Shown here piece by piece: positions 1 through 24,972 of a DNA stretch of 64,000 nt. This DNA is from Serratia quinivorans (lineage in GTDB: Bacteria > Pseudomonadota > Gammaproteobacteria > Enterobacterales > Enterobacteriaceae): the NCBI GenBank assembly GCA_900457075.1, contig UGYN01000002.1:3162001-3226000 (forward strand), in the 5' to 3' direction. The notes beneath the pieces are model-generated. The model had not been told where the DNA came from, did not search any database, and saw only the letters and a list, made by a program, of their open reading frames with translations. How positions within the stretch are numbered: the stretch's first letter is position 1; each line of letters starts with the position of its first letter. Both the position numbers and the translations under genes were made by a program.

Positions 1-1
1 A

Positions 2-1030
2 TTTGCAGGAAAAAGAATGCATACCGTGCTCAATTACTCAAATCAAAATTATAAAAATGCATTCAGACAGATAGTGATTGCAGACCCCAAAATGGCTGGG
101 CAAGCCGACGGGGTGCTGGCGACTTATCGCGATGTTGAACAGGCGCTTAAACATCATCGATTCGAGGCGGCAATTGTCACCGTCAATGAAGAGCATCATC
201 ACGGCATTTTGAAGCGGCTCACCGAGGCCGACATTCCTCGGATCCTTTGTGAAAAACCACTGACCGCAACGCTGGATGAAGCAAAGGATCTTGAATCGGC
301 GTTGAGCGCCAAGATCTTCTCCATGAATCTTGTTGAGCGTTTCAGCCCGGTGTTTCAGGATTTTTTCGCGTGGCGAAATACTGTAGAAACACTGAAGCCT
401 GCTCGCGTGCAGCTCTATTGGGGAAAAAACAGGGTAAGGGATTGCAGACCGACTATGGGGGTGCTCAGTGAAGCGATTCATCCTCTCGACCTAGCCTCTT
501 TTGCTTTCGGCATTCGCGAGATCGACGTCATCGGCGGGTTTATGCATCACAGCAATTTCTCTAACCGCCCGGAAGATGCTATAGCCGACTCATTGCATTG
601 CAAACTTATCAGCGAAGACCGCTGCATTATTTCGGCGCATGCTTCCTTTACCTGGATGTCTCGCCGGCGTGAAATGTTCGCGCATTTGGTGGGAGCGAAA
701 GACAGCTATATCGTTCATTTCACTTTCGATATGCCGCGTTGGGATTGCGACAGCGTCACCGTCAGCCGCATTGATCCCAAAGACGGTCACCGAACTACGG
801 TTTTGAAGAAATCATATACAAATCAGGACTTCCCCGAACCGCTGGATCAGCTGAGTAAAGTCTATCGATTTGTGACCCGCTCGCTTGACGATAAACCTGC
901 TGGTATGAATGAACCCGACAGTATCGTTGGATTGGAACAGGCGATGCGTCTGCAGACTTGGCTGGAACAAATACATCTGGCGTTGGAACCGCAAAGCAAG
1001 GGCCAAGCCGAAAAGCTATTCGCATCCTGA
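2..1030 (+). CDS. Gfo/Idh/MocA-family oxidoreductase, 5' end outside the window
   Basis: NAD(P)-dependent oxidoreductase of the Gfo/Idh/MocA type. The reading frame is open to the window edge, and the residues before the first ATG (FAGKR at bases 2-16) read as the end of the family's GxGxxGxRH nucleotide-binding motif, so the true start lies upstream and the ATG at 17 is internal. The ADP-binding strand ends in VIADP, and the family motif CEKPL lies near residue 83, followed by a C-terminal substrate domain. The next gene starts 22 bases downstream, so it is probably part of the same operon as the peptidase and the NRPS-PKS. Its substrate is unknown; a tailoring or precursor role in the cluster is inference. 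Confidence 0.75.
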   Translation, partial: FAGKRMHTVLNYSNQNYKNAFRQIVIADPKMAGQADGVLATYRDVEQALKHHRFEAAIVTVNEEHHHGILKRLTEADIPRILCEKPLTATLDEAKDLESALSAKIFSMNLVERFSPVFQDFFAWRNTVETLKPARVQLYWGKNRVRDCRPTMGVLSEAIHPLDLASFAFGIREIDVIGGFMHHSNFSNRPEDAIADSLHCKLISEDRCIISAHASFTWMSRRREMFAHLVGAKDSYIVHFTFDMPRWDCDSVTVSRIDPKDGHRTTVLKKSYTNQDFPEPLDQLSKVYRFVTRSLDDKPAGMNEPDSIVGLEQAMRLQTWLEQIHLALEPQSKGQAEKLFAS

Positions 1031-1052
1031 CAACGCGATGGAGGGGGGAGTT

Positions 1053-2321
1053 ATGCATCTCTATGAGAATGAAGCGGCACAGATAGCGCACAGGACATTC
1101 GAATGTTGGTTTGAAGAGGAAAAAGGGCGGATTTCAGACGCACTTGCCGACTATATCAGTATCGATACTACGTCGCCTAACGAGTGGCGAGCCAGACCTT
1201 TTCTAAAAAAATTGCTCGAACCGCTCGGTTTTACGCTGACGGAGTTGACTCTGCCGGATAGCTTTTGGTCGCATCCCGAACGTGCGCCTGAGCCGGTTTC
1301 CAAGCTCTCCGCCCACTCTTCGCTGTTACGTGCCCACCGGCCGGGAAAACCCGGAGGAAGGCACATTATTGTCAATGCGCATGTGGATGTCGTGCCGCTG
1401 CAACCGGAGTTTAAAGATGGCATGACAGCCCGAGTTTTCGAGGACAGAATCGTTGGCCGCGGCGCGGTCGATACCAAAGGCAACCTCATCATGTTCGTTG
1501 AGGCGCTGCGTTGGCTTATCGCATCGGGCAACGATACCAATCATGCATTGACCCTCGATTTGGTCTCAGAAGAGGAAATTGGCGGTAATGGCGCATTGGC
1601 TTCCACGCTCAGCGGCTGTCCGGCGGATTGCTGTCTGGTGCTGGAGCCGACCGGCGGCGAAATCTTCAGAGGACACCGAGGTTGCGTGACGTTTGAAGTC
1701 GAGTTCACCGGGCATGCCCGTCATATGGGGGATGCGAAAGAAACGGAGTTTACGGCAATTGACGCCGCGACGGAGGCGGTTCGTCAGTTAAAAAATCTGG
1801 AGAAACGCCTCGACGGCGAAAAGGTTCTCGTTCCTGCATTCATCGATTGGGAAAGAGCCTTACAGATTAACGTGGGGGAAGTTAGAGGGGGAGATTGGTA
1901 TGGTTCGACGCCTCGCTCCTGCAAAATATCCGGTAACTGCGGTTTCCTGCCCCATCAGGGGTTGGAGGGAACGCAGGAGAGGCTTAAGCACTTCTTTTCA
2001 ACGCTTGTCGAAAATATGCCCGACATAGGGTTTTCATTAACCTGGCCGGCATTACGCAACGAATCCTGCCTGATCCCTATGGACAACCCATTCATCACTG
2101 CACTTGCCGCGCTCACCGGGCATAAAGCGCCGTTTCGTGCCTGGAATGTGAGCTGCGATGGGCGGCATTACGCCCGATTAATGGGGGTTCCGACGGTGAT
2201 TTATGGCTGTGGAAGCCTGAAGGAGGCGCATGCGGTAAACGAAACGCTTAATTTTCATGAGCTTAAAGAAGGCATAGCGCTGACTGCAAAAATTTTGACT
2301 GACACCCTAGGAGGAAAGTGA
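1053..2321 (+). CDS. M20-family metallopeptidase (ArgE/DapE/aminoacylase type)
   Basis: Zinc-dependent amidohydrolase or peptidase of family M20, 422 residues. Visible motifs are HVDVVP near residue 110 (first metal ligand), GRGAVDTKGN near 135 (bridging aspartate), SEEEIGGNG near 172 (catalytic glutamate pair) and LEPTGG. The start at 1053 is chosen because a strong GGAGGGGGGAG ribosome site lies just before it; the frame is open further upstream but overlaps the preceding gene. The stop overlaps the NRPS start (TGATG). Families of this kind cleave N-acyl or dipeptide bonds. In this operon it may mature a precursor or hydrolyse the product, which is inference. Confidence 0.85.
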   Translation: MHLYENEAAQIAHRTFECWFEEEKGRISDALADYISIDTTSPNEWRARPFLKKLLEPLGFTLTELTLPDSFWSHPERAPEPVSKLSAHSSLLRAHRPGKPGGRHIIVNAHVDVVPLQPEFKDGMTARVFEDRIVGRGAVDTKGNLIMFVEALRWLIASGNDTNHALTLDLVSEEEIGGNGALASTLSGCPADCCLVLEPTGGEIFRGHRGCVTFEVEFTGHARHMGDAKETEFTAIDAATEAVRQLKNLEKRLDGEKVLVPAFIDWERALQINVGEVRGGDWYGSTPRSCKISGNCGFLPHQGLEGTQERLKHFFSTLVENMPDIGFSLTWPALRNESCLIPMDNPFITALAALTGHKAPFRAWNVSCDGRHYARLMGVPTVIYGCGSLKEAHAVNETLNFHELKEGIALTAKILTDTLGGK

Positions 2322-5300
2322 TGGGCCATACAGCATTTCGACCTGGCATGGATAATCGCGGCATCGGCCATTGTGCACATACCGATCCGCGCCCGGTGTT
2401 CCGGTTATTTGAAGATTGCGCTGCGCGCAACCCGAAGGCTGATGCGCTGATCCACAATGGCCGTCATGTCAGCTATGCGGCTCTGGATGACAAAGCGAAT
2501 GGCTACGCTTGGGCGATACAGCAAGCCGGCCTGAGCCGCGGCGACATCGTTCTTCTCGCGCTTCCCCGGGGCGAGGCATTGATCGCTGCGCTTATCGGCG
2601 CACAGAAAGCGGGGGTGGTTTATCTCCCGATCGATCAGGAATTTCCCGCTGCGCGAGTCGACTATATGGCACAAGACGCCAACGCTCGAGCGGTCATTAC
2701 CCACCGCGAAAATGCCGCCTCATGGCAGGAAAAAGTGCCACAAATCATCTTTCAGGAAGATATCGAAGCGACCCCGGCGCGAGTGGAGGCCGATGTTGAC
2801 TGGCTCGAACCGATGTATGTCATTTATACCTCGGGCACGACCGGTAAACCGAAAGGGATTATGCAGTGCCATCAAACCGTCAGCAACTTGGTGCAATGGC
2901 ATAACCAGGCTTCGGGCATCGACTGCACAGGGCGAGTGCTGCAGTTCGCCTCTTTTGGATTTGATGTCTATCTTCAGGAACTGTTCCCGGCGCTGACGAC
3001 CGGAGGCACCGTCGTTTTGATTGATGAAAAGGATCGCATCGATCCTGCGGCGGTGGCCAAATGCATCATCGATAGCGAAATTTCAACCCTGTTTCTACCC
3101 GTCTCAGTGCTTTCCGCGCTGTTTGAAGATCCTTCGACGCTACCCGACACTCTGGCCCATATCGTGACGGCGGGTGAGCCGCTGGTGATCACCGGGAAAC
3201 TGCGCGAAGAGCTGAACAAACGGCCCAATCTGATCATCTGGAATCACTACGGCGTGTCTGAATCGCATGTCGTGACGCAAGCTGGATACTCCGCCGCAAC
3301 GTATTTGCCGGAAAACCCGAATCTTGGCCGCCCGATCGATAATGTCGTCATCTCGATTCTCAACGATGATGGCGTGCCGGCAAAAGACAATGAGCCGGGA
3401 GAGATTTGGATTAGCGGCGCCTGTCTGGCGCAGGGATATATCAATATGCCGGAAAAAACGGCGGCGCTGTTCCGGGAATGTGATGGTGTAATGTGGTATC
3501 GGACGGGGGATTACGGCTACTTCTTGCCGGGCGGCGAGATCGTTTTCACAGGCCGCAAAGATGATCAGGTGAAAATTTCAGGGCATCTTGTCGTGCTGAG
3601 CGAAGTCGAGTCGGCGCTCTTGCAACATCCCGCCGTTTCGTCCTGCGCTTGTACCGTTCAGGGTGCCGCCGCCGATGGCGTCATCCTCGCGCACTGCACG
3701 CTGCGTGAAAACGTTGATGCTGGTGCGTTGAGGGAGTTTGTCTCTGGGCTTTTACCCTCTTGGTCAGTGCCAGGCAGAATCGTTTTCCATGAAAAGTTGC
3801 CTATCGGCGCAACGGGCAAGGTTGACCGGCGAGTCCTGGCCGCACCGGAATACCTGGACAGAAATCAGATGGGCGTGCCGTTCGAGCCTGCCAGCGATGC
3901 TTTGGGTGGCATCATACTCGATACGTTGGAGAACGTGCTGAATCTGCGCGGGATTGGCATGCAGGATACCTTCGCGCTCCTGGGGCTAAGTTCGCTCAAT
4001 ATGATTAGGGCTGCCACGCTATTGAGCCAAAAAGTCGAGCGGACGATCAGTCCGATGTCGTTCTTCGAATGTGCGGATCCCGCCGGATTGAGAGACGTTT
4101 TGGCCGGTAAGCCTGAAAAAGACCCTTCGACGGTGACGGAACGTAGGGCGACGAATAAGATCGCCATTATCGGCATGTCGGGGCTGTTCCCGGGTGCTGA
4201 CGATATTGCAACGCTCTGGGAGGCCATGCTGGCGGGCAACAATATGCTGAGCCGGCTGGAAGAAGAGGGAGATGCGTTGCCGGAGGCTGCACTCCTGCCG
4301 AAGAAGCGAGGCAAAAACCGTTTTATCGGGCGCATAGAAGGTATGGGCAGTTTCGACCCGTCGCTGTTTGGCATCTCTGCCCGTGATGCTTTATGGATGG
4401 ATCCGCAACAGCGCAAGTTTCTTGAACAATCATGGCGCTGTTTTGAAGATGCGGGTATTGATCCTCGGAGTATCCACGGGCGGGTCGGGGTCTTTGCCGG
4501 CAGTGCCGAGAGCACTTATCTATTTTATCTTCAGCCCCGTATACGCAGCAGCCTAGACTATCTGAACACGGTAATCAGCGCAGATAAAGATTTTCTCGCC
4601 ACTCGCGTGGCGTGGCATCTGAACCTACATGGGCCGGCGATGAACGTACAGAGCGCATGTTCCACCGGGCTTCTTGCGGTTCACGAGGCCTGTCAGGCAA
4701 TTCGGAGCGGTGAATGTGATATGGCGCTGGCGGGAGCTTCTTCTTTGATGATCCCGCAGGAAAGGCATATTCCTTATGAGCCTAATACGATCTTTTCCGA
4801 AGATGGGTTGACGAGGCCATTTGATGAACGCCGCGATGGTACTACTATGACCAACGCCGTTGCTGCACTGTTGCTTAAACCGCTGGACGCAGCGCAGCGT
4901 GATGGCGATCCGATCTATGCGGTCATCAGCGGTACCGGCGTTAGCAATGATGGGCATCGAAAGGCCAGTTTTTCCGCCCCCAGCGTGACCGGGCAGGCTG
5001 AGGCGATCCGGGGGGCGTTAGCGAACGCCGGCGTGACGCCCGCGGATATTTCTTTCATTGAGACGCACGGTACGGCGACAAAGCTGGGCGATCAGATTGA
5101 GCTTGCGGCATTGAGTCAGGTCTTTGACGTCCCCGACCGTCAGGGCCAATGTATCCTGTCATCCGTCAAAGCGAATCTTGGGCATGCGAACCGCGCAGCC
5201 GGAACCGTTGGACTGATTGCCGCAGTTCTTTCATTGTCTCATCGAACGGTGCCGGGATTGGCGCATTTTGTCCGGGCCGACGAGGCGTTGGCATTGGATC

Positions 5301-8300
5301 GTTCGCCTTTTCGCATTGTGCAGCGGCCGGAACGCCTGCCGGAAAAGGGAACGTTATACGCCGGGGTCAGTTCTTTCGGGATTGGCGGCACCAATGTCCA
5401 TCTTGTTATTGAATCTGCGCCGACGTACCCCGAGATGAGAGAAACGGCACAGACGGAATTGCTGTTGCTTTCCGCGTCGACCGCCGAGAAATTGGACGCG
5501 CTTAAACGTTCGCTTGTTCACGCATTAAGAAAACGGCCTTATTCCCTTTCTCAGGTTGTCAATACTTTGAACATCGGCCGGCCGGCTTTTAAGCACCGAG
5601 CTGCGTTTGTCGCCGATAGTACGGCCGATTTATGCGCGCGTCTTGACGGCGATCTTTACGCCGCGCATGGCGATGAGAGCAAACGCACGAAATCAATCTG
5701 GCTCTTTACCGACGCGCCATTACCCTACTTAGGGGCCGGCAAAGCGTTATATGACCGAAATCCCACCTTCCGCCAGGTCATCGACAGCTCCATTGCCGCT
5801 ATGGATGAGAGCGAGAGCGGCAAGGCGTTCAGCGAGTGGTTCGGCGACGCGCCTTCAGCAGTTGAGTATAAGCAGAGCGCGGTTTGGCGGCCGTTGAGTT
5901 TTATGGTTCAGATGGCGGCGGCGCGCGCACTGATTGCACTGGGCGTACAGCCGGACGCGATTGCCGGCGGGCGCGAGAGCGCATTGGCCTATCTGGTTTT
6001 GTCACAGGCCTGCACGCTCGAAGCGGCGCTGACATTGATGGTCCGACTGAGTGAGGCGGGCGAGGCGCAAGAGATCGTCGCGCTCATCAAGAATTTCAGC
6101 GCTGTGCTTGATCCCGCCGATGCCGAATTGGATTTCCACTTCCTGTCACCGTCTACGGGCCAGTCCCTGTCCGTGAACGCGCTCTGCGAGAAAGAAACGC
6201 TACGCGCAACGTTGAGCCGGGAGAGTGCATGCACCGGCGGGCTGCGTCGGCCCCCGGCGGATGAAACGGAGGAGATCGTCATCTTGGGCGCCGACTCTTT
6301 GAGTGCCGCTGTTCCGCCGCTTGAGCCGGAAAAACGTGAGGGATTTATCTTCTCTGCAACGGCGGGTGATGAAATGGCCTCTTTTGCCCGCGTCATCGGC
6401 AAGCATTGGTGTTCCGGGGGACATGTGGAGCGAGCCAAACTGGTGGCTAAATGGGCACTCCGCATCAACGGTTTGCCTGGCACTGTCTTCGAGAAACACG
6501 AGTACATGTTGCCCCTTGAATGCCCGACGAGTGTACAGGCTCAGCCTACGCCTGCCGCTTTGCCACTGGCTCAGCAGCTCTGGCACAGAGAGTTGAGGAG
6601 CGAACCGCCCGAACGTTTATTCGACTGGGCGGCGCTGGCTCAGCGCTCGCCAGCTTGGAGCGTTGTCGGCAACGATCGCCAGAGCAAAGCGCTGGCCGAG
6701 CGAATGCGGCGGTCGGGGCTCGTCATCCATTACGTCGAGCCACAAAACCTGGCTAATGGGCTGCCTGCTGATTCGGTCATCATCAGCGCGACAGATGCGG
6801 CGGCGGAGCAGCAATTATTGCTCGTTGCCCGGTGTTTGAAGGCCATGAAATCAGCGAGAGAGGCGGAGCTACTCATCATCCGCCAAGAAGATACGACATC
6901 GCCCAATTTTATTCCCGACGCTGCGTTGGCCACGGCCGCCGCCGTCGCGGCGATTGAATATCCCGGTATCAAATGCCGTTTCGTGACTTTTGATGCCGTG
7001 GCCTCGCTTGATGTGATGGATGTTCAACTGGCGACAGAAATGGGGGCTCTTGCCGAGAGGCTGCAAGCATCGACGATTGTATGGCGCGAGGGCGGGCGTT
7101 TTGCAGAAACCTATTCCGCTCGCGCGGCCTTTGCCACAAATATGCCCAATCTCGATAAAAACAGCGTGATTTTCATTACAGGCGGCACGGGGAATGTTGG
7201 GCAGGTTCTCTCTGACGTGCTGGCGATGAAACTGCGGTGTCGTTTGGTGTTAACCGGTCGCAGGCCGATGGAGGAGCCGGGCGTCAACGCACAGCTGAGA
7301 TCGCTGCAGGAGCGGGGGAGTGAGGCGATCTATATACCGTGCGATGTGAATGACGAGCAACAGGTCTATCAGGCGCTCGATCTGACCGTTAAAAAATTCG
7401 GTAGGCTTGATTTGGTGTTCCATCTTGCCGCGTCAATCAATGAAGAGCGTTTCCTTTGTTTCCTCGCCGATCTTTCCGAAGACAAACTGAAAGAGCAAAG
7501 TGATCCGAAAATCAGAGGGATGTACGCGCTGGACAACGGGTTGAAAGCATTAACGTTGGCGCCGGAACGGATCGCGTTCTCTTCCATTTCCGTCACGTTG
7601 GGCGGCGCAGGCTATGCGCCATACACCCTCGCTAATAGACTGATGCTGCGCGAAGGACTTGCGGCAGGGTGGCGTCTTATCCATTGGGATGTGTTTGAGA
7701 AAACGGCGCAGTCAGCCGGCGACGGCCGCATTGCTCTCGGCTCCAGCCTGAAAGGCGCAGGCCTGACGGGGGAGGATGCCTGGCATGCCCTGACGCACGT
7801 GTTGGCGACCTCGGCAAGAGAAACCGCCGTGTTCAAGTTTTCGCCGTTTAACCGGCCAACGAGCGCCAGAAAGAAAGCCGCGACGCTTGAGACACATTCG
7901 GCGCAAGAGAGCGACGCATTGAGAGAGCATCTGAGCCGGTTATGGGCAGATAATCTCGAACTGGATGCGCTGCCTGAACATGCGGATTTCCTCGCGCTGG
8001 GCGGTGATTCGATGGCGGCTATAGGCATCACGATGGACATTCGCAGCAGTTTGGCTATCGAGGTCCCGCCCGATCAACTGCTCAACAACACTGAATTTGA
8101 TGCGTTTGCCCGCAGCATCGTTGAACTTGTCCGGAAGGCTAACGGTGGCGCATCGCATGAGGATGCGCTGGAAAAATCGATACGCCTTATTTGGGAGGAG
8201 CAGTTGGAGCAAGAACATCTTGCCGCAGACACGGATTTTCTCTCGGCGGGCGGTGACTCGGTATCGGCGATCGGCGTGACGATCGATATTAGGCATCAGT

Positions 8301-9958
8301 TGGGAATCGACATCGATCCCGATCTGCTATTGCGACATCCTCGTTTGGACACGTTTTGCCGGGCAGTCAAGGATATTGCAGAACAGCGCGTTGCAGACGC
8401 GGACAGCGGCTTGGTCGAAGCGATTCGGAAAATATGGGAGGATAATCTGGAGGTGCGGATCACGGACCGGAAAGCGGATTTTCTTGCGGCGGGGGGCGAC
8501 TCCATGTCAGCGATTGGTGTGACGATGGATATACGCGAGAAGCTTGGTATAGATGTCACGCCTGATGTGTTGCTACAGCATACAGGGTTGGATGTCTTTA
8601 TCGATAAAGTGGCCGCACTGACCGCACTGACCGCACTGACCGCACTGTCATCGCCTGAACCACAACGCCCGATGGCCCAAAAGCCGTTGTCGTATCGCGC
8701 GTCTCCCTTGCAGACTCGATGGTTCTATATGCACAGGGAAGGTTATGGGAATCTGATCATGCCCGTCAGCCTTAAGGGCGATATCAATGTGGCCGCCTTG
8801 CGAGAGGCCATTGATGGCGCGATTGGCGACTTTGACGCTTTACGCACAGTGTATCATGAAGAAAGTACGGGCATTGTTCGGGCGGATGTTCTTTCCAAAG
8901 AAAAACTGACGCCCACGCAGATCTTGCCGGAAGAGGCCCAGGCATCGGGGCAACTCGGCGACCTGATTAATGCGTTGCAGGCTTCGCCGTTGTCTCTTAC
9001 CGCGCCGCCGATAAGAAGCTGGATCCTGCGAACATCGGCAACCAGCGTGTTGATCATCTTTCATACTCATCATATTTGCTTTGATGGATGGACCACTGCG
9101 CTGCTTTCGGATGCCATTCGCTCTTATTATGAAGACGGCGTAGGGCTGTCGGACACTAAGCCCTATAGCCTGGCGGCGGCGGAGGCGTACTCCTGGCTGG
9201 AGGGCGCCCAAGGCAGGGAACAATTGGCGCGTTTGCGCTCGCTGTTCAAAGGGGCGCCGTTGCCCGTCAGACCTAGGCCGGACCTTAACGGGAACGACGC
9301 TGAACGCGCCGCGCACAAGGTGAGCGGCATGCTGTCACCGCAAACGGTCGAGAGGATGCGTGGCAAGGCCGCGGTCAATGGCGTGACGCTGTTTACTGCC
9401 ATGATGGCCGCTTTCGCTCGGTTGTTATCCGAGTTTTCAGGTGAATATGATTTAATCTTCGGCACGACCAGCAGTGGCAGAATGGCTTCGGGGGCAGATC
9501 GTACCGTGGGCGTGTTTGTCAATCCTCTGCCGGTAAGAATGAAATTGGATGCGGATAATATGCAGCGCAGTGCTTTAACGGCGGCGCGCGAGGCGACATT
9601 CATGGTGCAGGTGGGGATGCGTTTTCCGATTACCGAGCTGGTGGAGCATGTTGACCCCTTCACTCAGCGAGGTCTTAATGGCGCGTTTACATCTTATTTC
9701 CTCTATCAGAACTTTAAAAAACCGTCGAAATGGAAAGGTATTGAATATGAAATAGGTGAGCCGGAAGACGACACGGAAAATTCAGACTTGATGCCTTTCG
9801 TGAGCAAAGAGGAAATATTAATGCGTCATCTTGAACTGATCGTCTTTGAGCGTGACGACGGCAGCCTTTCTCTCAATCTTTGGGGACGAAAGAGTCTTTA
9901 TTCATCAGCCTGGCTGCAGGCCATGCTGGAGCGGTACAGGTGGCTTGCTGACGAGTAA
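2321..9958 (+). CDS. Hybrid NRPS-PKS: A(Pro)-PCP-KS-AT(degenerate)-KR-ACP-ACP-ACP-C
   Basis: 2545-residue assembly-line enzyme. The A domain (about 30-510) has YTSGTTGKPKG near 168. Its specificity residues, read by alignment to GrsA, are D,V,Q,F,V,A,H,V,V plus the A10 lysine, very close to published proline codes. The PCP serine is S558. The KS (about 612-1045) keeps C780, H916 and H955. The following AT-like region has G-G-R-E-S (1216-1220) where GHSxG is expected, so the catalytic serine is R1218. The KR has GGTGNVG near 1620 plus Y1768 and N1772. Three tandem carriers follow (S1897, S1980, S2061), then a C domain with an intact HHxxxDG (H2250-G2256). There is no thioesterase. The start at ATG 2321 overlaps the upstream stop and follows AGGAGG. 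Predicted action: load proline, extend by one malonyl unit supplied in trans, ketoreduce, then condense with an amine. Confidence 0.9.
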   Translation: MGHTAFRPGMDNRGIGHCAHTDPRPVFRLFEDCAARNPKADALIHNGRHVSYAALDDKANGYAWAIQQAGLSRGDIVLLALPRGEALIAALIGAQKAGVVYLPIDQEFPAARVDYMAQDANARAVITHRENAASWQEKVPQIIFQEDIEATPARVEADVDWLEPMYVIYTSGTTGKPKGIMQCHQTVSNLVQWHNQASGIDCTGRVLQFASFGFDVYLQELFPALTTGGTVVLIDEKDRIDPAAVAKCIIDSEISTLFLPVSVLSALFEDPSTLPDTLAHIVTAGEPLVITGKLREELNKRPNLIIWNHYGVSESHVVTQAGYSAATYLPENPNLGRPIDNVVISILNDDGVPAKDNEPGEIWISGACLAQGYINMPEKTAALFRECDGVMWYRTGDYGYFLPGGEIVFTGRKDDQVKISGHLVVLSEVESALLQHPAVSSCACTVQGAAADGVILAHCTLRENVDAGALREFVSGLLPSWSVPGRIVFHEKLPIGATGKVDRRVLAAPEYLDRNQMGVPFEPASDALGGIILDTLENVLNLRGIGMQDTFALLGLSSLNMIRAATLLSQKVERTISPMSFFECADPAGLRDVLAGKPEKDPSTVTERRATNKIAIIGMSGLFPGADDIATLWEAMLAGNNMLSRLEEEGDALPEAALLPKKRGKNRFIGRIEGMGSFDPSLFGISARDALWMDPQQRKFLEQSWRCFEDAGIDPRSIHGRVGVFAGSAESTYLFYLQPRIRSSLDYLNTVISADKDFLATRVAWHLNLHGPAMNVQSACSTGLLAVHEACQAIRSGECDMALAGASSLMIPQERHIPYEPNTIFSEDGLTRPFDERRDGTTMTNAVAALLLKPLDAAQRDGDPIYAVISGTGVSNDGHRKASFSAPSVTGQAEAIRGALANAGVTPADISFIETHGTATKLGDQIELAALSQVFDVPDRQGQCILSSVKANLGHANRAAGTVGLIAAVLSLSHRTVPGLAHFVRADEALALDRSPFRIVQRPERLPEKGTLYAGVSSFGIGGTNVHLVIESAPTYPEMRETAQTELLLLSASTAEKLDALKRSLVHALRKRPYSLSQVVNTLNIGRPAFKHRAAFVADSTADLCARLDGDLYAAHGDESKRTKSIWLFTDAPLPYLGAGKALYDRNPTFRQVIDSSIAAMDESESGKAFSEWFGDAPSAVEYKQSAVWRPLSFMVQMAAARALIALGVQPDAIAGGRESALAYLVLSQACTLEAALTLMVRLSEAGEAQEIVALIKNFSAVLDPADAELDFHFLSPSTGQSLSVNALCEKETLRATLSRESACTGGLRRPPADETEEIVILGADSLSAAVPPLEPEKREGFIFSATAGDEMASFARVIGKHWCSGGHVERAKLVAKWALRINGLPGTVFEKHEYMLPLECPTSVQAQPTPAALPLAQQLWHRELRSEPPERLFDWAALAQRSPAWSVVGNDRQSKALAERMRRSGLVIHYVEPQNLANGLPADSVIISATDAAAEQQLLLVARCLKAMKSAREAELLIIRQEDTTSPNFIPDAALATAAAVAAIEYPGIKCRFVTFDAVASLDVMDVQLATEMGALAERLQASTIVWREGGRFAETYSARAAFATNMPNLDKNSVIFITGGTGNVGQVLSDVLAMKLRCRLVLTGRRPMEEPGVNAQLRSLQERGSEAIYIPCDVNDEQQVYQALDLTVKKFGRLDLVFHLAASINEERFLCFLADLSEDKLKEQSDPKIRGMYALDNGLKALTLAPERIAFSSISVTLGGAGYAPYTLANRLMLREGLAAGWRLIHWDVFEKTAQSAGDGRIALGSSLKGAGLTGEDAWHALTHVLATSARETAVFKFSPFNRPTSARKKAATLETHSAQESDALREHLSRLWADNLELDALPEHADFLALGGDSMAAIGITMDIRSSLAIEVPPDQLLNNTEFDAFARSIVELVRKANGGASHEDALEKSIRLIWEEQLEQEHLAADTDFLSAGGDSVSAIGVTIDIRHQLGIDIDPDLLLRHPRLDTFCRAVKDIAEQRVADADSGLVEAIRKIWEDNLEVRITDRKADFLAAGGDSMSAIGVTMDIREKLGIDVTPDVLLQHTGLDVFIDKVAALTALTALTALSSPEPQRPMAQKPLSYRASPLQTRWFYMHREGYGNLIMPVSLKGDINVAALREAIDGAIGDFDALRTVYHEESTGIVRADVLSKEKLTPTQILPEEAQASGQLGDLINALQASPLSLTAPPIRSWILRTSATSVLIIFHTHHICFDGWTTALLSDAIRSYYEDGVGLSDTKPYSLAAAEAYSWLEGAQGREQLARLRSLFKGAPLPVRPRPDLNGNDAERAAHKVSGMLSPQTVERMRGKAAVNGVTLFTAMMAAFARLLSEFSGEYDLIFGTTSSGRMASGADRTVGVFVNPLPVRMKLDADNMQRSALTAAREATFMVQVGMRFPITELVEHVDPFTQRGLNGAFTSYFLYQNFKKPSKWKGIEYEIGEPEDDTENSDLMPFVSKEEILMRHLELIVFERDDGSLSLNLWGRKSLYSSAWLQAMLERYRWLADE
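8613..8648 (+). repeat. Four tandem 9-bp repeats in the NRPS-PKS linker
   Basis: The unit CCGCACTGA occurs four times head to tail, the last copy differing at its final base. It encodes an Ala-Leu-Thr repeat in the linker between the third ACP and the C domain. The in-frame unit can change linker length by slippage without breaking the gene. Confidence 0.85.
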
Positions 9959-10006
9959 TATGCTAGCTTGAAACATTATTTATACTAATTGAGTAAAGGA
10001 GAAAAC

Positions 10007-11728
10007 ATGGCCTCTGTGCTTTTGGCGTCGCAAATGGGGATCCGTGTGGCGCGAGAGATGCCTGCTAGCGTCGATTCAATTCCTCACGCTTGGTTGCTTA
10101 GAGGCGGTTATCTTTTCCAGCATGCGGCAGGCATTTTTTACTTTTCTCCTCTGATGTATCGCGTCGAGCAAAAAGTTTCCGCGCTGATTGCTGAAGAGAT
10201 CACTAAAGAAGGGGGCAGCCAAGTTCGGCTGCCGATTCTTCAGAATGCCGAGCTTTGGAAACAGTCGGGTCGTTGGGACGTGTATCGCCACGAAAAGTTG
10301 ATGTTCCAACTGACCGATCGCAAAGAAAGAGAGTTCGGTTTGTCGCCTACGGCGGAGGAAGCTGTGTGCGATATGGCGAAGAAAATGATCGTATCTTCAG
10401 CGCAACTGCCGCTTATTTTGTTCCAGCAAAATATGAAGTTTCGCGATGAACTGCGTCCGCGCTCCGGTCTGCTGCGAACCCGTGAATTCATCATGATGGA
10501 TTCCTATAGTTTTGACATCGACGAAGCGGGGTTGGACGTTTCTTATCAGAAGATGCGTCAAGCGTACCAAGCTATTTTTGAACGGTTAGGACTCAATTAC
10601 ATTATCGTTCAGGCGGACAGCGGCGCGATAGGCGGGGCCAGCTCCGAAGAGTTCATGTCGATCAGCGAAGCGGGTGAAGACACGCTGCTGTTCAATGATA
10701 TCTATGCGGCCAATTTGGAAAAGGCGGCCTCCCTGCCGGCTGAACCGATCCGCGTGCCGGAGGCGGAAAAACGCATTGTTGAAGCGAATCATTGCACGCT
10801 GGAAGCAGTCTCGGCGGAGTATGGATTTTCTCCATCATCGACGATGAAAACGGCGTTGTATGACATTCATCATTCGGGTAGCAAAGAACGGGTCGCCGTA
10901 TTAATGCGTGGTGATGGCGATGTGAATCTTGTCAAACTGGCGAGCGCGTTTGGTGGCCTGGAAGCGGTGCTGGTCGATGATGCTGAAATCAATAGCCTCA
11001 TTGCGGCTAAACCTGCTTTTCTTGGACCGTTCGGCGCGGTCGCGGATTTGAAAATGGTGGCCGATAAAAGCCTCGAGGGGCTGACATCGTTACTGACCGG
11101 AGCCGGCGAGCCAAACAAATTCGTGCTGTCAGTTAAGCCGGGGCGAGATTTTCCTTTACCCGAGTATATTGATATCCGCGAGGCGAAAGTGGGAGAACTG
11201 GGGCCGGACGGCTGTCCGCTTAAACAGTGCCGCGGCGTTGAAATCGGACATATTTTCAAACTGGGCGACAAGTATTCTAGGGCGCTTAACGCCGGAGTCT
11301 ATGACAGCACGCAGACCTTCCGCCCTTTCCAGATGGGATGCTATGGCATTGGCACTACGCGAGTCATCGCCGCATTGGTCGATCAGAACTGCGATCCGCA
11401 AACGGGGCTGATTTGGCCATTGCAGGTTGCGCCGTTCCATGTTCATTTGGTCGCGCTGAAAGCCGCGTTGCAGCCTGAAGCCTTGAAAATTGCGGCGTTA
11501 CTCGCCGAAAAAGGCGTTGAAGTGCTGGTTGACGATCGCAAAGGCTCGGCTGGGGAGCTGCTGAAAGATTCGGATATCCTCGGTTTGCCTTTGCGGATTG
11601 TGATCGGCCGTGATTTCTCCGAAGGTAACGTGGAGTTTCTCAATCGGCTGAATAACGAGCGCATGTTGGTTGATATTGATACGGTGATTGGGAGGATTTC
11701 CACGATCGTTTCCTCAACTCTTAAATAA
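10007..11728 (+). CDS. Second, divergent prolyl-tRNA synthetase, probable self-resistance copy
   Basis: Class II prolyl-tRNA synthetase, 573 residues, the length of bacterial ProRS (E. coli 572). Motif 2 (KFRDELRPRSGLLRTREF), motif 3 (MGCYGIGTTR), an insertion domain with the TMKT lysine motif of the editing site, and a C-terminal anticodon-binding domain are all visible. It is clearly divergent: the proline-site segment PTHEE reads PTAEE (A116 replaces His), and the N-terminal segment RAGMIRKLASGLYTWLP has become RGGYLFQHAAGIFYFSP. Start ATG 10007 follows AAAGGAG; an in-frame TTG at 9989 is less likely. It lies 48 bases after an NRPS whose A domain reads as proline-specific. Housekeeping proS is not expected here. 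Resistance to a ProRS-targeting product is inference. Confidence 0.88.
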   Translation: MASVLLASQMGIRVAREMPASVDSIPHAWLLRGGYLFQHAAGIFYFSPLMYRVEQKVSALIAEEITKEGGSQVRLPILQNAELWKQSGRWDVYRHEKLMFQLTDRKEREFGLSPTAEEAVCDMAKKMIVSSAQLPLILFQQNMKFRDELRPRSGLLRTREFIMMDSYSFDIDEAGLDVSYQKMRQAYQAIFERLGLNYIIVQADSGAIGGASSEEFMSISEAGEDTLLFNDIYAANLEKAASLPAEPIRVPEAEKRIVEANHCTLEAVSAEYGFSPSSTMKTALYDIHHSGSKERVAVLMRGDGDVNLVKLASAFGGLEAVLVDDAEINSLIAAKPAFLGPFGAVADLKMVADKSLEGLTSLLTGAGEPNKFVLSVKPGRDFPLPEYIDIREAKVGELGPDGCPLKQCRGVEIGHIFKLGDKYSRALNAGVYDSTQTFRPFQMGCYGIGTTRVIAALVDQNCDPQTGLIWPLQVAPFHVHLVALKAALQPEALKIAALLAEKGVEVLVDDRKGSAGELLKDSDILGLPLRIVIGRDFSEGNVEFLNRLNNERMLVDIDTVIGRISTIVSSTLK

Positions 11729-11773
11729 TATGTATTAGTCGCGACTTGATCTGATATATGGCCTTGAAAGGTT

Positions 11774-12749
11774 GAGAGTTACCGGTTTTGATATGGGTGT
11801 CGAATCCTTATACAAAACACGAGGTAACTCTCATGCTTCATACTACCAATCCCGTTATCAAACACAAAGCCGGTTTGCTCAATCTGGCGGAAGAACTCAG
11901 CAACGTATCGAAATTCTGTAAAATCATGGGCGTTTCACGTGATACATTTTATCGTTACCGCGAACTGGCCGATGAAGGTGGCGTGGATGCGCGGATAAAC
12001 CGGAGTCGTCGCGCACCAAACCTTAAGAATCGTATCGATGATGCCACTGAGCGGGCTGTTGTTGATTATGCCGTTGAGTTCCCGGCTCACGGCCAGCACC
12101 GGACCAGTAACGAGCTGCGCAAACAGGGCGTTTTTATCTCCGGTAGCGGTGTCCGTTCCGTTTGGTTACGTCATAACCTTGAGAACTTCAAAAACGCCTG
12201 AAAGCGCTGGAAGAAAAAGTGGCCCGTGACGGCATTGAACTGACTGACAGCCAGACCGCAGCGCTGGAACGTAAAGCCAGTGATGATGAAGCATGTGGTG
12301 AGATTGAAACCGCTCATCCGGGTTATCTGGGCTCACAGGACACATTCTACGTGGGCAACCTGAAAGGTGTCGGGCGTATCTATCAACAGACGTTCGTTGA
12401 TACGTACTCGAAGGTGGCTCACTGCAAGCTTTACGTCACCAAAGCGCCGATTACAGCAACTGATTTGCTACTGCCATTGTATGAGTCTTAGGGCCTGCCG
12501 ATGCTGAGAATACTGACAGACAGAGGTACAGAATATTGCGGCAAAGTGGACCACCATGATTATCAGCTTTATCTGGCGATAAATGACATCGGACACACAA
12601 AAACTAAGGCGATGTCACCACAGACCAACGGCATCTGCGAGCGGTTCCATAAAACGATCTTTTTTAAACACTCCCAGCCGTTATCATCCAAACGTGAAAG
12701 CCGATCTACTTGTTCTATAACTATCGTATCTCCTGGCCCAGCATCCTGA
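11774..12749 (+). mobile_element. Decayed IS481-family insertion sequence
   Basis: The transposase remnant is preceded by an inverted repeat (GAGAGTTACC at 11774-11783 and GGTAACTCTC at 11823-11832) and by a TGT at 11798 that may be the left tip of the element. The right end is not recognisable because the 3' part is lost. The element lies exactly between the biosynthetic cluster and the conjugative-element leading region. Confidence 0.7.
11833..12740 (+). pseudogene. IS481-family transposase, broken by frameshifts, a deletion and a stop
   Basis: Conceptual translation gives an N-terminal helix-turn-helix (NLAEELSNVSKFCKIMGVSR) and then an rve-type DDE integrase core (QTFVDTYSKVAHCKLYV, RILTDRGTEYCG, SPQTNGICERFHKTI). 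It is broken by a one-base loss in the A-run near 12190-12195, which ends the first frame at 12201. A small deletion after TATDLL and an in-frame TAG at 12489-12491 follow, and homology is lost after about 12660. The usual C-terminal part is missing. It cannot make active transposase. Confidence 0.85.
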
Positions 12750-12836
12750 AGCAGTCTTCATAAGTTCCGGCCGATGTAATGCTGCACCTGAAGCATTTTC
12801 AACATACCAGCCAGCTATACCCATTTGATACCACAT

Positions 12837-12865
12837 TTGACATAAGCTCCATTTGCTCTGAAAAT
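12837..12865 (+). promoter_or_regulatory. Candidate sigma70 promoter before the hairpin array
   Basis: A perfect -35 box TTGACA (12837-12842) is followed after 17 bases by GAAAAT (12860-12865), a fair -10 box. Transcription would start near 12872, so an RNA would begin just before the first hairpin at 12880. No other strong promoter is seen before the gene at 13205. Confidence 0.45.
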
Positions 12866-12879
12866 AAACATGCTTACTC

Positions 12880-12937
12880 GTTGTCTTCGGACAACCACCA
12901 ATGCTCAATGGGTCTGTGATGAGCGCCTTCGGGTGAC
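12880..12937 (+). repeat. Structured repeat unit A (two covarying hairpins)
   Basis: Hairpin 1 is GTTGTC-TTCG-GACAAC (12880-12895). Hairpin 2 is GCTCA (12903-12907) paired to TGAGC (12920-12924) around a 12-base loop, enclosed by CACC (12896-12899) and GGTG (12932-12935). The unit ends in GCCTTCGGGT. It is an imperfect copy of the unit at 12941-13000, with compensating changes in both stems. Confidence 0.75.
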
Positions 12938-12940
12938 CTA

Positions 12941-13000
12941 GCTGTCAGTCGACAGCCACCAATGATCCAGTCACTTGTGAGGATCGCCTTCGGGTAGTGG
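12941..13000 (+). repeat. Structured repeat unit B (two covarying hairpins)
   Basis: Hairpin 1 is GCTGTC-AGTC-GACAGC (12941-12956). Hairpin 2 is GATCC (12964-12968) paired to GGATC (12981-12985), again around a 12-base loop ending in TGTGA. The unit ends in GCCTTCGGGT like unit A. Relative to unit A, one pair in stem 1 and two in stem 2 differ on both sides, and pairing is kept. Confidence 0.75.
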
Positions 13001-13008
13001 CAAAAAAC

Positions 13009-13078
13009 GCTTCCGTAGCTTGAAAGGAAGCACACCGTTTACGGTGTAGTACATCTGCCCGCCTTTGAGAGTAGATGT
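13009..13078 (+). other. Three further hairpins after the repeat units
   Basis: GCTTCC (13009-13014) pairs with GGAAGC (13026-13031). ACACCG-TTTA-CGGTGT (13032-13047) is a perfect 6-bp hairpin. ACATCT (13051-13056) pairs with AGATGT (13073-13078). Together with the two repeat units they make about 200 bases of near-continuous local structure with no open reading frame worth calling, ending about 125 bases before the first accessory gene. Confidence 0.65.
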
Positions 13079-13150
13079 CATCGTAGTTTTGATGAACAAG
13101 GCTTAACTTTCTTACCTATGATGATTGCGCGTGACGCAATCAAATCCCAA

Positions 13151-13204
13151 GGGAAATACCTTTCCCCTGGGAGCGGTGTTTCCCTTTTTTACAGGAGAAA
13201 CACC
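13151..13204 (+). promoter_or_regulatory. Leader 1: hairpin, T-tract and sequestered ribosome site
   Basis: Arm 1 (13151-13160, GGGAAATACC) pairs with arm 2 (13175-13184, GGTGTTTCCC) over 10 bp including one G-T, directly followed by six T, as in an intrinsic terminator. Arm 2 can instead pair with the ribosome-site segment (13194-13204, GGAGAAACACC), which ends at the ATG. Arm 1 and the ribosome-site segment are near copies, so they compete for arm 2. Confidence 0.6.
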
Positions 13205-22968: not shown

Positions 22969-24000
22969 ATGAAAAACGAAGAAAAGATGCACGACGAGTG
23001 GGAATTTCTGCTCGAGGAATATTTCTTTACTAAGCAACTTCGTTCAGCAACGGAATGGAGCTATAGGAAAGTAGCTTTAACGTTTACGCGTTTTATCGGT
23101 GGAACTATTACTCCAGCCATGGTGACGCAAAGGGATGTGTTGCACTGGCGCCGGCATCTGTTAAAGGAGAAAAAGCTTTCGGTACATACCTGGAATAATA
23201 AGGTGGCTCACCTGAGGGCAATATTTAACCTAGCTATAAAAAAAACTTTGGTTCAGCACACTGAAAACCCTTTTAATGGAACGATAGTCCCATCGGACAC
23301 TAAGAAAAAACGAATATTGACGAAGTCTCAATTGACCCGTCTCTACCTCGTGATGCAGCAATATGAACAGAGGGAGAAAGAGAGAAAACCAGTGAAAGGT
23401 GGAAAGTGCGCACTCTATCCGACCTGGTTCTGGATGACGGTATTGGACACATTTCGATATACCGGCATGCGTAACAATCAGATGATCCACATCAGACTGA
23501 GAGATGTGAACCTTGAGCAAGGCTGGATCGAGCTTCGGCTTGAAGGCAGCAAAACACATCGAGAGTGGAAAGTGCCGGTGGTTCGTCAACTAAGAGAGCG
23601 AATAAAGCTACTCATTATGCGAGCAACAGAACGAGGTGCTGGCCAGCATGACTTGCTTTTTGACGTCAAACGATTCACCAGCCCACGTCATGCTCATTAC
23701 ATCTATGACGAGAAAAATGTTCTGCAGTCGTTCCGTAGTTTCTATCGCCGCTTATCCAGGGAATGTGGATTTGATGTTTCTTCGCATCGGTTCCGTCATA
23801 CATTGGCGACAGAGTTGATGAAAGCTCCTGACAGAAACTTGAAACTGGTGAAGGATCTGCTGGGTCACCGTAACGTCAGCACAACAATGGAATATATCGA
23901 ACTGGATATAGAAGTTGCCGGTAAGGCACTGGAGCAGGAGCTTGTTTTACATACGGACATCACTGCGACGAGAAGCTTACAAAGCTTGACACAGGCATGA
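22969..24000 (+). CDS. int: Tyrosine recombinase, ICE integrase
   Basis: Site-specific tyrosine integrase, 343 residues. An N-terminal SAM-like core-binding domain (residues about 10-110) is followed by the catalytic domain with Arg in YTGMRNN (about 168), HRFRH (about 273-277), LLGHRN (about 299) and the nucleophile in MEYIEL (about 309). It is closer in style and size to XerC/D than to P4-type integrases. Start ATG 22969 follows GAGG. It reads toward the tRNA-Phe gene 193 bases away, as expected for an element inserted at the tRNA 3' end. Confidence 0.9.
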   Translation: MKNEEKMHDEWEFLLEEYFFTKQLRSATEWSYRKVALTFTRFIGGTITPAMVTQRDVLHWRRHLLKEKKLSVHTWNNKVAHLRAIFNLAIKKTLVQHTENPFNGTIVPSDTKKKRILTKSQLTRLYLVMQQYEQREKERKPVKGGKCALYPTWFWMTVLDTFRYTGMRNNQMIHIRLRDVNLEQGWIELRLEGSKTHREWKVPVVRQLRERIKLLIMRATERGAGQHDLLFDVKRFTSPRHAHYIYDEKNVLQSFRSFYRRLSRECGFDVSSHRFRHTLATELMKAPDRNLKLVKDLLGHRNVSTTMEYIELDIEVAGKALEQELVLHTDITATRSLQSLTQA

Positions 24001-24065: not shown

Positions 24066-24192
24066 GAGGAATTCAACTTACAACGTCGCGGTAGTAAACA
24101 GTTAACCTGTTATCTCTTTGACAAGTCGATTCCGTATTAACCACCCGTTAAAGTTCTCATCCTTTAACCAGTGCGCATTGATGCAGAATTAG

Positions 24193-24268
24193 TGGTGCCC
24201 GGACTCGGAATCGAACCAAGGACACGGGGATTTTCAATCCCCTGCTCTACCGACTGAGCTATCCGGGC
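24193..24268 (-). tRNA. pheV: tRNA-Phe (GAA)
   Basis: The reverse strand gives a complete 76-base cloverleaf starting GCCCGGATAGCTCAGTCGG, anticodon GAA in the loop TTGAAAA, T-arm GGTTCGATTCC and encoded CCA. As far as I recall it equals the enterobacterial tRNA-Phe. It lies next to speC, as pheV does in E. coli. Its 3' end faces the integrase, so the 3' half is the likely attachment core and was regenerated on insertion. No second copy of the core is seen in the window. Confidence 0.95.
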
Positions 24269-24972
24269 AACGGGGCGCATTTAACCCTATTGGCCGGAAA
24301 TCGTCAATCGCTTTCTGTCACAAAGCCGATCGGTTGCTCTATTTTCATGCAATGGCAGGTTGGGCAGGTGAGAGTCAGTGGTGTTGTTTGGTAATAGATA
24401 TGCAAAAAAATCGTCTATTTATACCGTTTTGATTTTTCTGTGTTTTATTTTAATTGTTTAATTAACAATGTGTTACTTGTTAAGCTTTCGTAATCAAAGC
24501 AGCATAATTGTCACTTGAACCTCATAAAAAAACATGCAATCATTGCGCAAATTTTAGCACTCTACGTCCCCTAACGGCGTTCCCGCTCATTTAAGTCAGA
24601 GGGTTGCAGGCATGACTGGTTTTGTTACTCAAGCGTCACTGCGCACCAGACATCAAATGATGCCGTTACTCAACCGTTACCCTTCCCGAACGCAATCCGT
24701 CAAAAACGCCCAGCCTGCCATGCGGTAAGGCTATCTGATGCTCGCTGTTAGGCATTATTAAAAATAGAGCGGCGGCTCTGCTTTTACTGATGTCTATCGG
24801 ACGCTGCCGATACCAGTCCCCGATAGTTACCTGATAATCTTAAGAGAGTCAGCCGGTCACGCTTGCGCTTTATGCGCTAACGCCGGACATCAATTTGCCG
24901 GGATAATTTTTGTTATCCCATCACCGTGCCCCGTGGCACCACCTCATCCTTAACCGTTTGAGAGTTAGCACA
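24269..24972 (+). promoter_or_regulatory. Long upstream region of speC
   Basis: A 704-base stretch without an established gene. It starts AT-rich (24390-24560) and holds one small reading frame (24612-24728). After that frame comes a short hairpin AGAGC-GGCG-GCTCT followed by GCTTTT, which could terminate or pause. The rest (24840-24960) is GC-richer. A leader this long before a polyamine gene suggests regulation at the transcript level, but no known riboswitch is recognised. Confidence 0.4.
24612..24728 (+). CDS. Possible leader peptide upstream of speC, 38 residues
   Basis: An ATG at 24612, preceded by GCAGG, opens a 38-codon frame rich in Arg, Gln, His and Pro, ending PAMR. It is followed by a small hairpin with a T-run and then by speC 245 bases later. 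Ornithine-sensing leader peptides (SpeFL) control speF in E. coli. This frame is not clearly similar to SpeFL, so the assignment rests only on position and layout. It could be chance. Confidence 0.25.
   Translation: MTGFVTQASLRTRHQMMPLLNRYPSRTQSVKNAQPAMR

Follow-up and report, generated by a model that had tools for sequence, protein, structure and literature searches.

Organization of the operon and domain content of its synthase

The 64,000-nucleotide stretch of the 5.88 Mb Serratia quinivorans genome analysed here (the window; G000:C2:3162001-3226000, contig UGYN01000002.1 of assembly GCA_900457075.1) carries a gene for a nonribosomal peptide synthetase-polyketide synthase (NRPS-PKS), followed immediately by a gene for a second prolyl-tRNA synthetase (ProRS). 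Both lie on a mobile element (the island). They are the last two of six consecutive genes that point the same way; the run, which begins upstream of the window, encodes a major facilitator superfamily (MFS) transporter, a short-chain dehydrogenase/reductase (SDR), a Gfo/Idh oxidoreductase, an M20 enzyme, the NRPS-PKS and the ProRS (Table 1). The genes are spaced by 22-48 bases, and the M20 stop overlaps the NRPS start; 48 bases separate the NRPS stop from the ProRS start. The NRPS open reading frame (2318-9958) probably starts at ATG 2321 after GGAGG, overlapping the stop codon of the preceding gene, and the ProRS frame (9989-11728) probably starts at ATG 10007 after AAAGGAG.

Pfam identified AMP-binding, ketosynthase (KS), ketoreductase (KR), PP-binding (three stretches) and Condensation domains in the NRPS frame, and no thioesterase (TE) or thioester reductase domain. 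The adenylation (A) domain had been described in the first-pass annotation as having a code close to proline codes. Re-reading by motif position again gave D,V,Q,F,V,A,H,V,V; the code columns and the tenth residue, K, depend on the GrsA reference letters. Usual proline codes are DVQ[LFY]IAHVVK. Comparison of the pocket segment with the PDB ranked tyrocidine synthase 2 (9bfd_B) first and gramicidin S synthase 2 (8p5o_A) second of 19 sequences. In the same columns both have D,V,Q,S,I,A,H,V,V (by eye) and are thus identical to the island code at 7 of 9 positions, the differences being S to F and I to V. We take these two to be the proline modules TycB1 and GrsB1.

The acyltransferase (AT) region gave a partial PF00698 match of 19.5 bits, under the cut-off of 32.7. 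Among its relatives (12 given, 9 aligned), GQGxQ and GHSxGE are kept in 9/9 and WxxHxR in 8/9; the island AT has lost all three. A working AT was ruled out by this loss of the catalytic motifs, and judged by its residues the PKS acyltransferase is catalytically dead. Malonate would therefore have to be loaded by a trans-acting malonyl transferase. In PMC12828459, PipC, a detoxin/rimosamide-like synthase that also has no AT, is served by the housekeeping FabD.

Searches for NRPS orthologues, in which two candidates per genome were scored, found none in 394 genomes of the order (E<=1e-90), where identity in the best-scoring matches was 29-34% across A-PCP-KS and at most 42% across just the KS, and none in 350 genomes of the class (E<=1e-150), where the best-scoring matches had 32-33%. 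The A domain could be read in three of the 19 loci from the order-level search, and the code differed in every one.

Judged by the gene next door, the starter ring may also be a piperidine. When compared with solved structures, the product of the cyclodeaminase gene upstream of the MFS gene scored best against lysine cyclodeaminases (246.5 bits for 5gzi and 245.3 bits), with 131.9 bits for ornithine cyclodeaminase (1u7h); its identity is 43.0% to 5gzi and 35.4% to 1u7h. Ten tunnel or pocket positions of lysine cyclodeaminase are named in PMC13261480. Reference lysine and ornithine enzymes differ at 5 of these 10, and there the cluster protein has the lysine residue at 3, neither residue at 2 and the ornithine residue at 0. 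It also sides with the lysine enzyme at W64, a position that we added to the 10. Two of the three lysine-like positions are common to alanine dehydrogenase and the third is merely I/V; the best NCBIfam model is the ornithine cyclodeaminase PRK07589, below its cut-off (193.8 vs 350). Because of these weak discriminating positions and this best model, lysine specificity is a lean and not proof. A dedicated enzyme, we argue, would be needed more for pipecolate than for proline in a cluster. Since the cyclodeaminase is closest to lysine enzymes, a pipecolate starter is possible; it may be a serious alternative to proline, and both were kept as options.

Table 1. Features of the island and its flanks. 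Plain numbers are window positions; L004 is the stretch upstream of the window in its own numbering, and the Gfo/Idh frame crosses the boundary between the two.
Feature	Position	Strand	Basis or remark
Methyltransferase-like gene, TviB-like UDP-sugar (UDP-GlcNAc) dehydrogenase, PhyH dioxygenase	L004:11996-15025	divergent from cyclodeaminase	methyltransferase match weak, under cut-off
OCD-family cyclodeaminase	L004:15931-17028	same as operon	upstream of MFS, 884 bases apart
MFS transporter	L004:17913-19196	co-directional with NRPS	first of six-gene run
SDR	L004:19228-19929	co-directional with NRPS	second of six-gene run
Gfo/Idh/MocA-type oxidoreductase	L004:19969 to window 1030	+	PF01408; frame crosses window boundary
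M20 ArgE/DapE-type deacylase or peptidase	1053..2321	+	PF01546; TIGR01910 159.5 bits, under cut-off 217.6
NRPS-PKS: A, peptidyl carrier (PCP), KS, AT (dead by motif loss), KR, three acyl carriers (ACP), condensation (C)	2321..9958	+	Pfam and motifs; first PCP by eye
Adenylation domain, code DVQFVAHVVK, proline-type pocket	2408..3820	+	Pfam, motif positions, PDB comparison
Ketosynthase, C-H-H triad intact	4154..5269	+	Pfam, motifs, alignment
Remnant of an acyltransferase, lacking GQGxQ, GHSxGE and WxxHxR	5630..6697	+	partial PF00698; alignment
Ketoreductase, NADPH motif, S/Y/N by eye	7166..7645	+	PF08659, motifs
Three tandem carrier domains, GGDS near 7994, 8243, 8486	7890..8605 (outer limits approximate)	+	PF00550, three stretches; motifs
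Terminal condensation domain with HHxxxDG	8693..9940	+	PF00668, motif
Extra ProRS of the bacterial type, with an INS editing domain	10007..11728	+	Pfam, NCBIfam, tree
Broken IS481-family transposase at ProRS 3' end	11726..12749	+	97.7% to annotated IS481 transposases over 11726-12200; split frames
Tyrosine integrase beside tRNA-Phe	22969..24000	+	TraI-type and ArdC genes to its left
tRNA-Phe(GAA), probable insertion site	24193..24268	-	far-side repeat not found

The second prolyl-tRNA synthetase and its relatives

The gene after the synthase had been called a divergent ProRS, and this holds. The protein matches tRNA-synt_2b, tRNA_edit and HGTP_anticodon in Pfam and passes the cut-off of the NCBIfam proline--tRNA ligase model PRK09194 (585.4 vs 558 bits). 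It is a complete class II enzyme of bacterial type, with core, INS and anticodon domains, the class II motifs (by eye) and the editing Lys. The genome holds two ProRSs, the island copy and a housekeeping proS, which are 39% identical. The first-pass annotation had named another A-domain specificity or a sole proS as findings that would count against it; the pocket is of proline type, and the separate proS rules out the island copy as the only one. A housekeeping-type ProRS occurs in 30/30 genomes of the genus, at 37-39% to the island copy, with a second ProRS (E<=1e-60) in this genome only. The island type was found in 2/394 order genomes (E<=1e-130), this one and one whose copy matches that of Xenorhabdus sp. 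BG5 in identity and length, and in 1/30 genomes within the genus of the latter.

For comparison we assembled a non-random set from a scan with island ProRS peptides (92 relatives, best 80 kept) and from the genome-search hits. The alignment had 98 rows, the island and 97 loci. Twelve of these, from the island, Xenorhabdus, Rhodospirillales and Kiloniellaceae with their duplicates, were treated as a separate group, and L001, which repeats the island sequence, was excluded. The other 85 rows include L120, a duplicate of L011. The tree was built from 58 rows, after removal of 7 duplicates and of two out of every three of loci L037-L085. The island and Xenorhabdus copies stand beside four sequences from Rhodospirillales metagenome-assembled genomes (MAGs; 56-58% identity) with 100% SH-aLRT support, far from the host proS, in a clade where the program warned of long branches meeting. 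The tree and the 39% identity rule out a recent duplicate of the host proS. In the four MAGs (L007-L010), which may be incomplete, this INS-containing lineage is the only ProRS at E<=1e-20; the surrounding genes are ordinary in the 2/4 that were read, and the cluster proteins gave no match at any of the four ProRS loci. Because the lineage is apparently the sole ProRS of these MAGs, amid ordinary genes where these were read, the island enzyme has the appearance of an ordinary ProRS brought in from a distant source, the form that a resistant copy of a target would usually take.

Two sets of residue changes were distinguished. The first, in the catalytic pocket, is common to the island, Xenorhabdus and Rhodospirillales enzymes: the TxE loop reads T-A-E, not T-H-E or T-S-E; the motif 2 K is M (K in 84/85 other rows); and a two-residue insertion, missing from 81/85 others, lies on the A76 side of the pocket beside Y89/L93. 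The second set, in the INS domain, is confined to the island and Xenorhabdus copies, namely H to F at 378 (H in 85/85 others), G to A at 343 (G in 84/85) and TP to EA at 265-266 (TP in 85/85). Positions 378 and 343 presumably correspond to E. coli H369 and G331, which we assume to be editing-pocket residues. Between the island and Xenorhabdus genes the ratio of nonsynonymous to synonymous substitution rates (dN/dS) was 0.103 for the whole gene and 0.074 for the INS domain. A ratio of about 0.10 points to purifying selection, as expected of a useful stand-alone gene.

The first-pass annotation had suggested looking for NRPS-ProRS neighbours in genome databases, and the one further case was a ProRS with a 129-residue NRPS remnant in Xenorhabdus sp. 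BG5. There, at L006:9542-11749, an intact ProRS of 582 amino acids (94% to the island copy) is adjoined by the last 129 NRPS residues only. These abut the C-terminal half of an integrase gene of the same type as the L004 integrase (57%), and the contig also has a DUF1281 gene like that of the window (50%). From the NRPS 3' end through the ProRS the DNA is 93.3% identical to the island, and the match ends 13 bases before the IS481 match. The dN/dS of the 129-codon remnant was 0.065. A resistance gene would be expected to look like this, with the ProRS retained and the synthase gone, although that loss may be recent and the contig stops 0.2 kb past this locus. The cyclodeaminase had no match in the Xenorhabdus genome, in a search that had no positive control and is therefore uninformative by itself.

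A plasmid collection contained 69 records with ProRS matches. Five were opened; four had neighbours showing no biosynthetic cluster and the fifth was unannotated. On a Clostridioides difficile plasmid record (L125), a 99 kb circle resembling a chromosomal block, two ProRS genes are adjacent to each other and accompanied by GluRS and CysRS. Deinococcus sp. KNUC1210 (L126) has a lone plasmid ProRS gene beside an IS630 transposase, and Paenibacillus polymyxa plasmid pPpO211 (L124) carries a ProRS gene and, some 5 kb away, a ybaK gene for a Cys-tRNA(Pro) deacylase.

Proposed product, target and competing explanations

We lean, if cautiously, towards the reading that the operon makes a beta-hydroxyacyl amide derived from proline or pipecolate which blocks ProRS, the extra ProRS being the resistant target. 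The A domain would load a cyclic imino acid, either proline or pipecolate made by the neighbouring cyclodeaminase. The KS would extend it once with malonate, the malonyl group being loaded in trans, and the KR would reduce the chain to a beta-hydroxyacyl-carrier protein. The terminal C domain would then release the chain onto an amine, a free amine being our simplest guess for the acceptor. The PhyH, SDR, Gfo/Idh and M20 enzymes may tailor the product and the MFS pump may export it. Such a product would occupy the proline pocket of ProRS, and the foreign ProRS, encoded by the last operon gene, would keep charging tRNA-Pro in the producer. Substrate choice, trans loading, product, target and resistance are all things that we infer. 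The 3-hydroxy-3-(pyrrolidin-2-yl)propanoyl core proposed in the first-pass annotation is not supported in that form: with the AT dead it would need trans loading, and the starter may be pipecolate.

Self-resistance, likewise proposed there, fits because of the tight co-directional spacing, the foreign origin, the altered catalytic pocket, the purifying selection and the retention beside the Xenorhabdus NRPS remnant; that ProRS is the target we continue to infer. By analogy, the pattern works like the known pairs of a product and a self-resistance synthetase, with ProRS as the new element. MupM (IleRS), ObaO (ThrRS) and BorO (ThrRS) are self-resistance synthetases. PMC12945691 reports AcmD (AlaRS, ascamycin cluster), and also SbzA (IleRS), as such synthetases; like them, the island ProRS is a second, divergent synthetase encoded within a cluster beside biosynthetic genes, and its housekeeping counterpart lies elsewhere in the genome. 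In contrast, the enzyme here is a ProRS, and its product and resistance are predicted. No report of ProRS as a cluster self-resistance gene was found in the literature searched by title and abstract start, with few subscription papers covered.

Several observations weigh against this reading. The target, the product and the resistance are themselves predictions from sequence. Rhodospirillales ProRSs with no biosynthetic cluster visible around them have the same changes in the catalytic pocket, which are therefore ancestral and not selected by a cluster product. Inhibitor contacts, which the first-pass annotation had proposed comparing, are mostly unchanged: of seven positions touching or lining the halofuginone site of bacterial ProRS in PMC13003883 (read as S. 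aureus numbering), six (W80, R85, Y89, Y161, F411 and C439) are unchanged in an alignment by eye, and the seventh, L93, falls at the two-residue insertion. The terminal C domain keeps HHxxxDG and has no acceptor module, and its amine partner is a guess. The intact NRPS-ProRS pair was found in one genome only in the genus, order and class searches. Finally, there are signs of wear: the dead AT, 884 bases with no intact known gene and a broken insertion sequence (IS) at the right edge. Because of these three, cluster genes may be missing.

The same signs of wear bear on the view that the ProRS is a chance passenger, a mobile element having joined it to the NRPS without joint function or the cluster having decayed. 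IS481 debris, the gene-free stretch between the cyclodeaminase and the MFS gene, the dead AT and the single genome with the intact pair would all suit it. However, the six genes are co-directional and 22-48 bases apart or overlapping, the same junction of NRPS 3' end and ProRS recurs in Xenorhabdus with dN/dS values of 0.065 (NRPS remnant) and 0.103 (ProRS), and keeping a spare essential enzyme calls for a reason. We regard chance association as unlikely.

Slightly less credible again is a role in guarding translation, in which the extra ProRS would refuse, or edit with a retuned pocket, a toxic proline analogue from the cluster (pipecolate-, hydroxyproline- or dehydroproline-like). H378F, G343A and TP265-266EA are found in the island and Xenorhabdus copies at columns constant or nearly so elsewhere, Rhodospirillales included, with an INS dN/dS of 0.074, and a lysine-type cyclodeaminase with a PhyH enzyme could make such analogues. 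A second careful enzyme, however, would leave the housekeeping ProRS mischarging unless editing acts in trans, and the roles of the INS residues (E. coli G331 and H369) are assumed.

A biosynthetic ProRS, making Pro-tRNA for the product or itself transferring prolyl as the IleRS-like SbzA does in SB-203207, seems improbable. SbzA and AcmF are precedents in PMC12945691, and the terminal C domain has no visible acceptor module. On the other side, the enzyme retains every ProRS domain, the editing Lys and the class II motifs, purifying selection is strong across two hosts, one of which has only an NRPS remnant beside the ProRS, and the housekeeping enzyme already provides Pro-tRNA.

The accessible part of PMC5473758 describes the fungal swainsonine cluster, whose synthase SwnK has A, T, KS, AT and ketoreductase domains; it starts from pipecolate, a cyclic imino acid that is one of the two options here, makes one ketide extension and is accompanied by 2-oxoglutarate dioxygenases and Rossmann reductases. 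It differs in its fungal host, an AT annotated as present and a terminal thioester reductase, and that part names no ProRS for the cluster. The island protein has no terminal thioester reductase and was thus ruled out as a SwnK-type indolizidine synthase. A bicyclic product, formed as in the swainsonine proposal by attack of the ring nitrogen on the thioester to give a pyrrolizidine or indolizidine with a target other than ProRS, would suit the shared domains but is very improbable, since a terminal C domain with intact HHxxxDG takes the place of the reductase and the ProRS would be left unexplained.

Among the closest known systems is the detoxin/rimosamide-like NRPS-PKS PipC of pseudotetraivprolide, which in PMC12828459 is a proline A-PCP-KS-KR-ACP protein without a working AT, with a dioxygenase in the cluster. 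In contrast, the island protein starts with an A domain, ends with a C domain and has three tandem ACPs, and the island has a ProRS and no upstream amino-acid module, TE or, on reading of the frame lists, partner NRPS; these absences rule out membership of the family. A PhyH-family protein is present on the island, and may or may not correspond to the conserved detoxin/rimosamide dioxygenase (PipE type).

Bacterial natural products that act on ProRS are scarce, phosmidosine being one. Febrifugine, a plant alkaloid, and its derivative halofuginone inhibit ProRS with a saturated nitrogen-ring side chain that fills the proline pocket, as a possible island product would; no quinazolinone genes were recognised on reading the island neighbourhood, and febrifugine biosynthesis is not known to be bacterial. 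In a bolder form of the ProRS-inhibitor reading, which we think rather doubtful as a whole, the island would make a bacterial febrifugine-like inhibitor. Lysine would be converted to pipecolate and hydroxylated by PhyH; after loading and a single ketide extension the chain would leave as an amide, with its (hydroxy)piperidine in the proline pocket. The alien ProRS with its rebuilt editing pocket would be the resistant target, and the mobile element would have moved between Xenorhabdus and Serratia-like hosts.

Direct tests are feasible, since the cluster would indicate its own target, relies on one main synthase gene and belongs to a probably culturable enterobacterial genus. If the inhibitor reading is true, bacterial antibiotics would gain a new target class, halofuginone would have a natural counterpart, and the synthase-free Xenorhabdus ProRS would represent natural spread of resistance to an uncharacterised compound.

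The mobile element and its flanks

Judging from its gene content, the region is a mobile element and the biosynthetic operon was acquired horizontally, because the interval from the cluster to tRNA-Phe holds integrase, TraI-type and ArdC genes. A 12-base repeat of window 24101-24300 that could mark the left end was found neither in 40 kb upstream nor in window 1-30000. On the right, IS481 debris (window 11690-12749) starts at the ProRS stop codon, and the ProRS is a few residues shorter at its end than the Xenorhabdus copy; genes right of the original cluster may thus have been lost. No E. coli genome (0/5,426) covers 80% of window 1-12200; 3,286 match part of it, which in the 20 matches listed is the IS481 end. 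The M20 gene was found in its own genome only (1/30 genus genomes, E<=1e-40), as was the Gfo/Idh partner (1/394 order genomes, E<=1e-30).

The 884 bases between the cyclodeaminase and MFS genes (L004:17029-17912) contain one long open frame, which gave no family match when scanned, and no other; the stretch looks like a decayed frame. A phosphopantetheinyl transferase gene is likewise divergent from the cyclodeaminase, and an Integrase_1 gene comes next. Against PDB sequences the PhyH protein had 0 relatives at E<=0.001, and the methyltransferase-like protein had two weak, unrelated and uninformative matches. The open reading frame lists of L004, L005 and window 1-26000 held no other NRPS-sized frame on reading, which did not include a family search of every frame. 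A promoter and terminator scan of 9800-13200 was not used, since promoters were near the shuffled background (4 found, 3.4 expected). Left of the element there are genes for type VI secretion, at L004:2876-4291 (VasL/ImpA by Pfam) and at L005:10860-18765 (by reading only).

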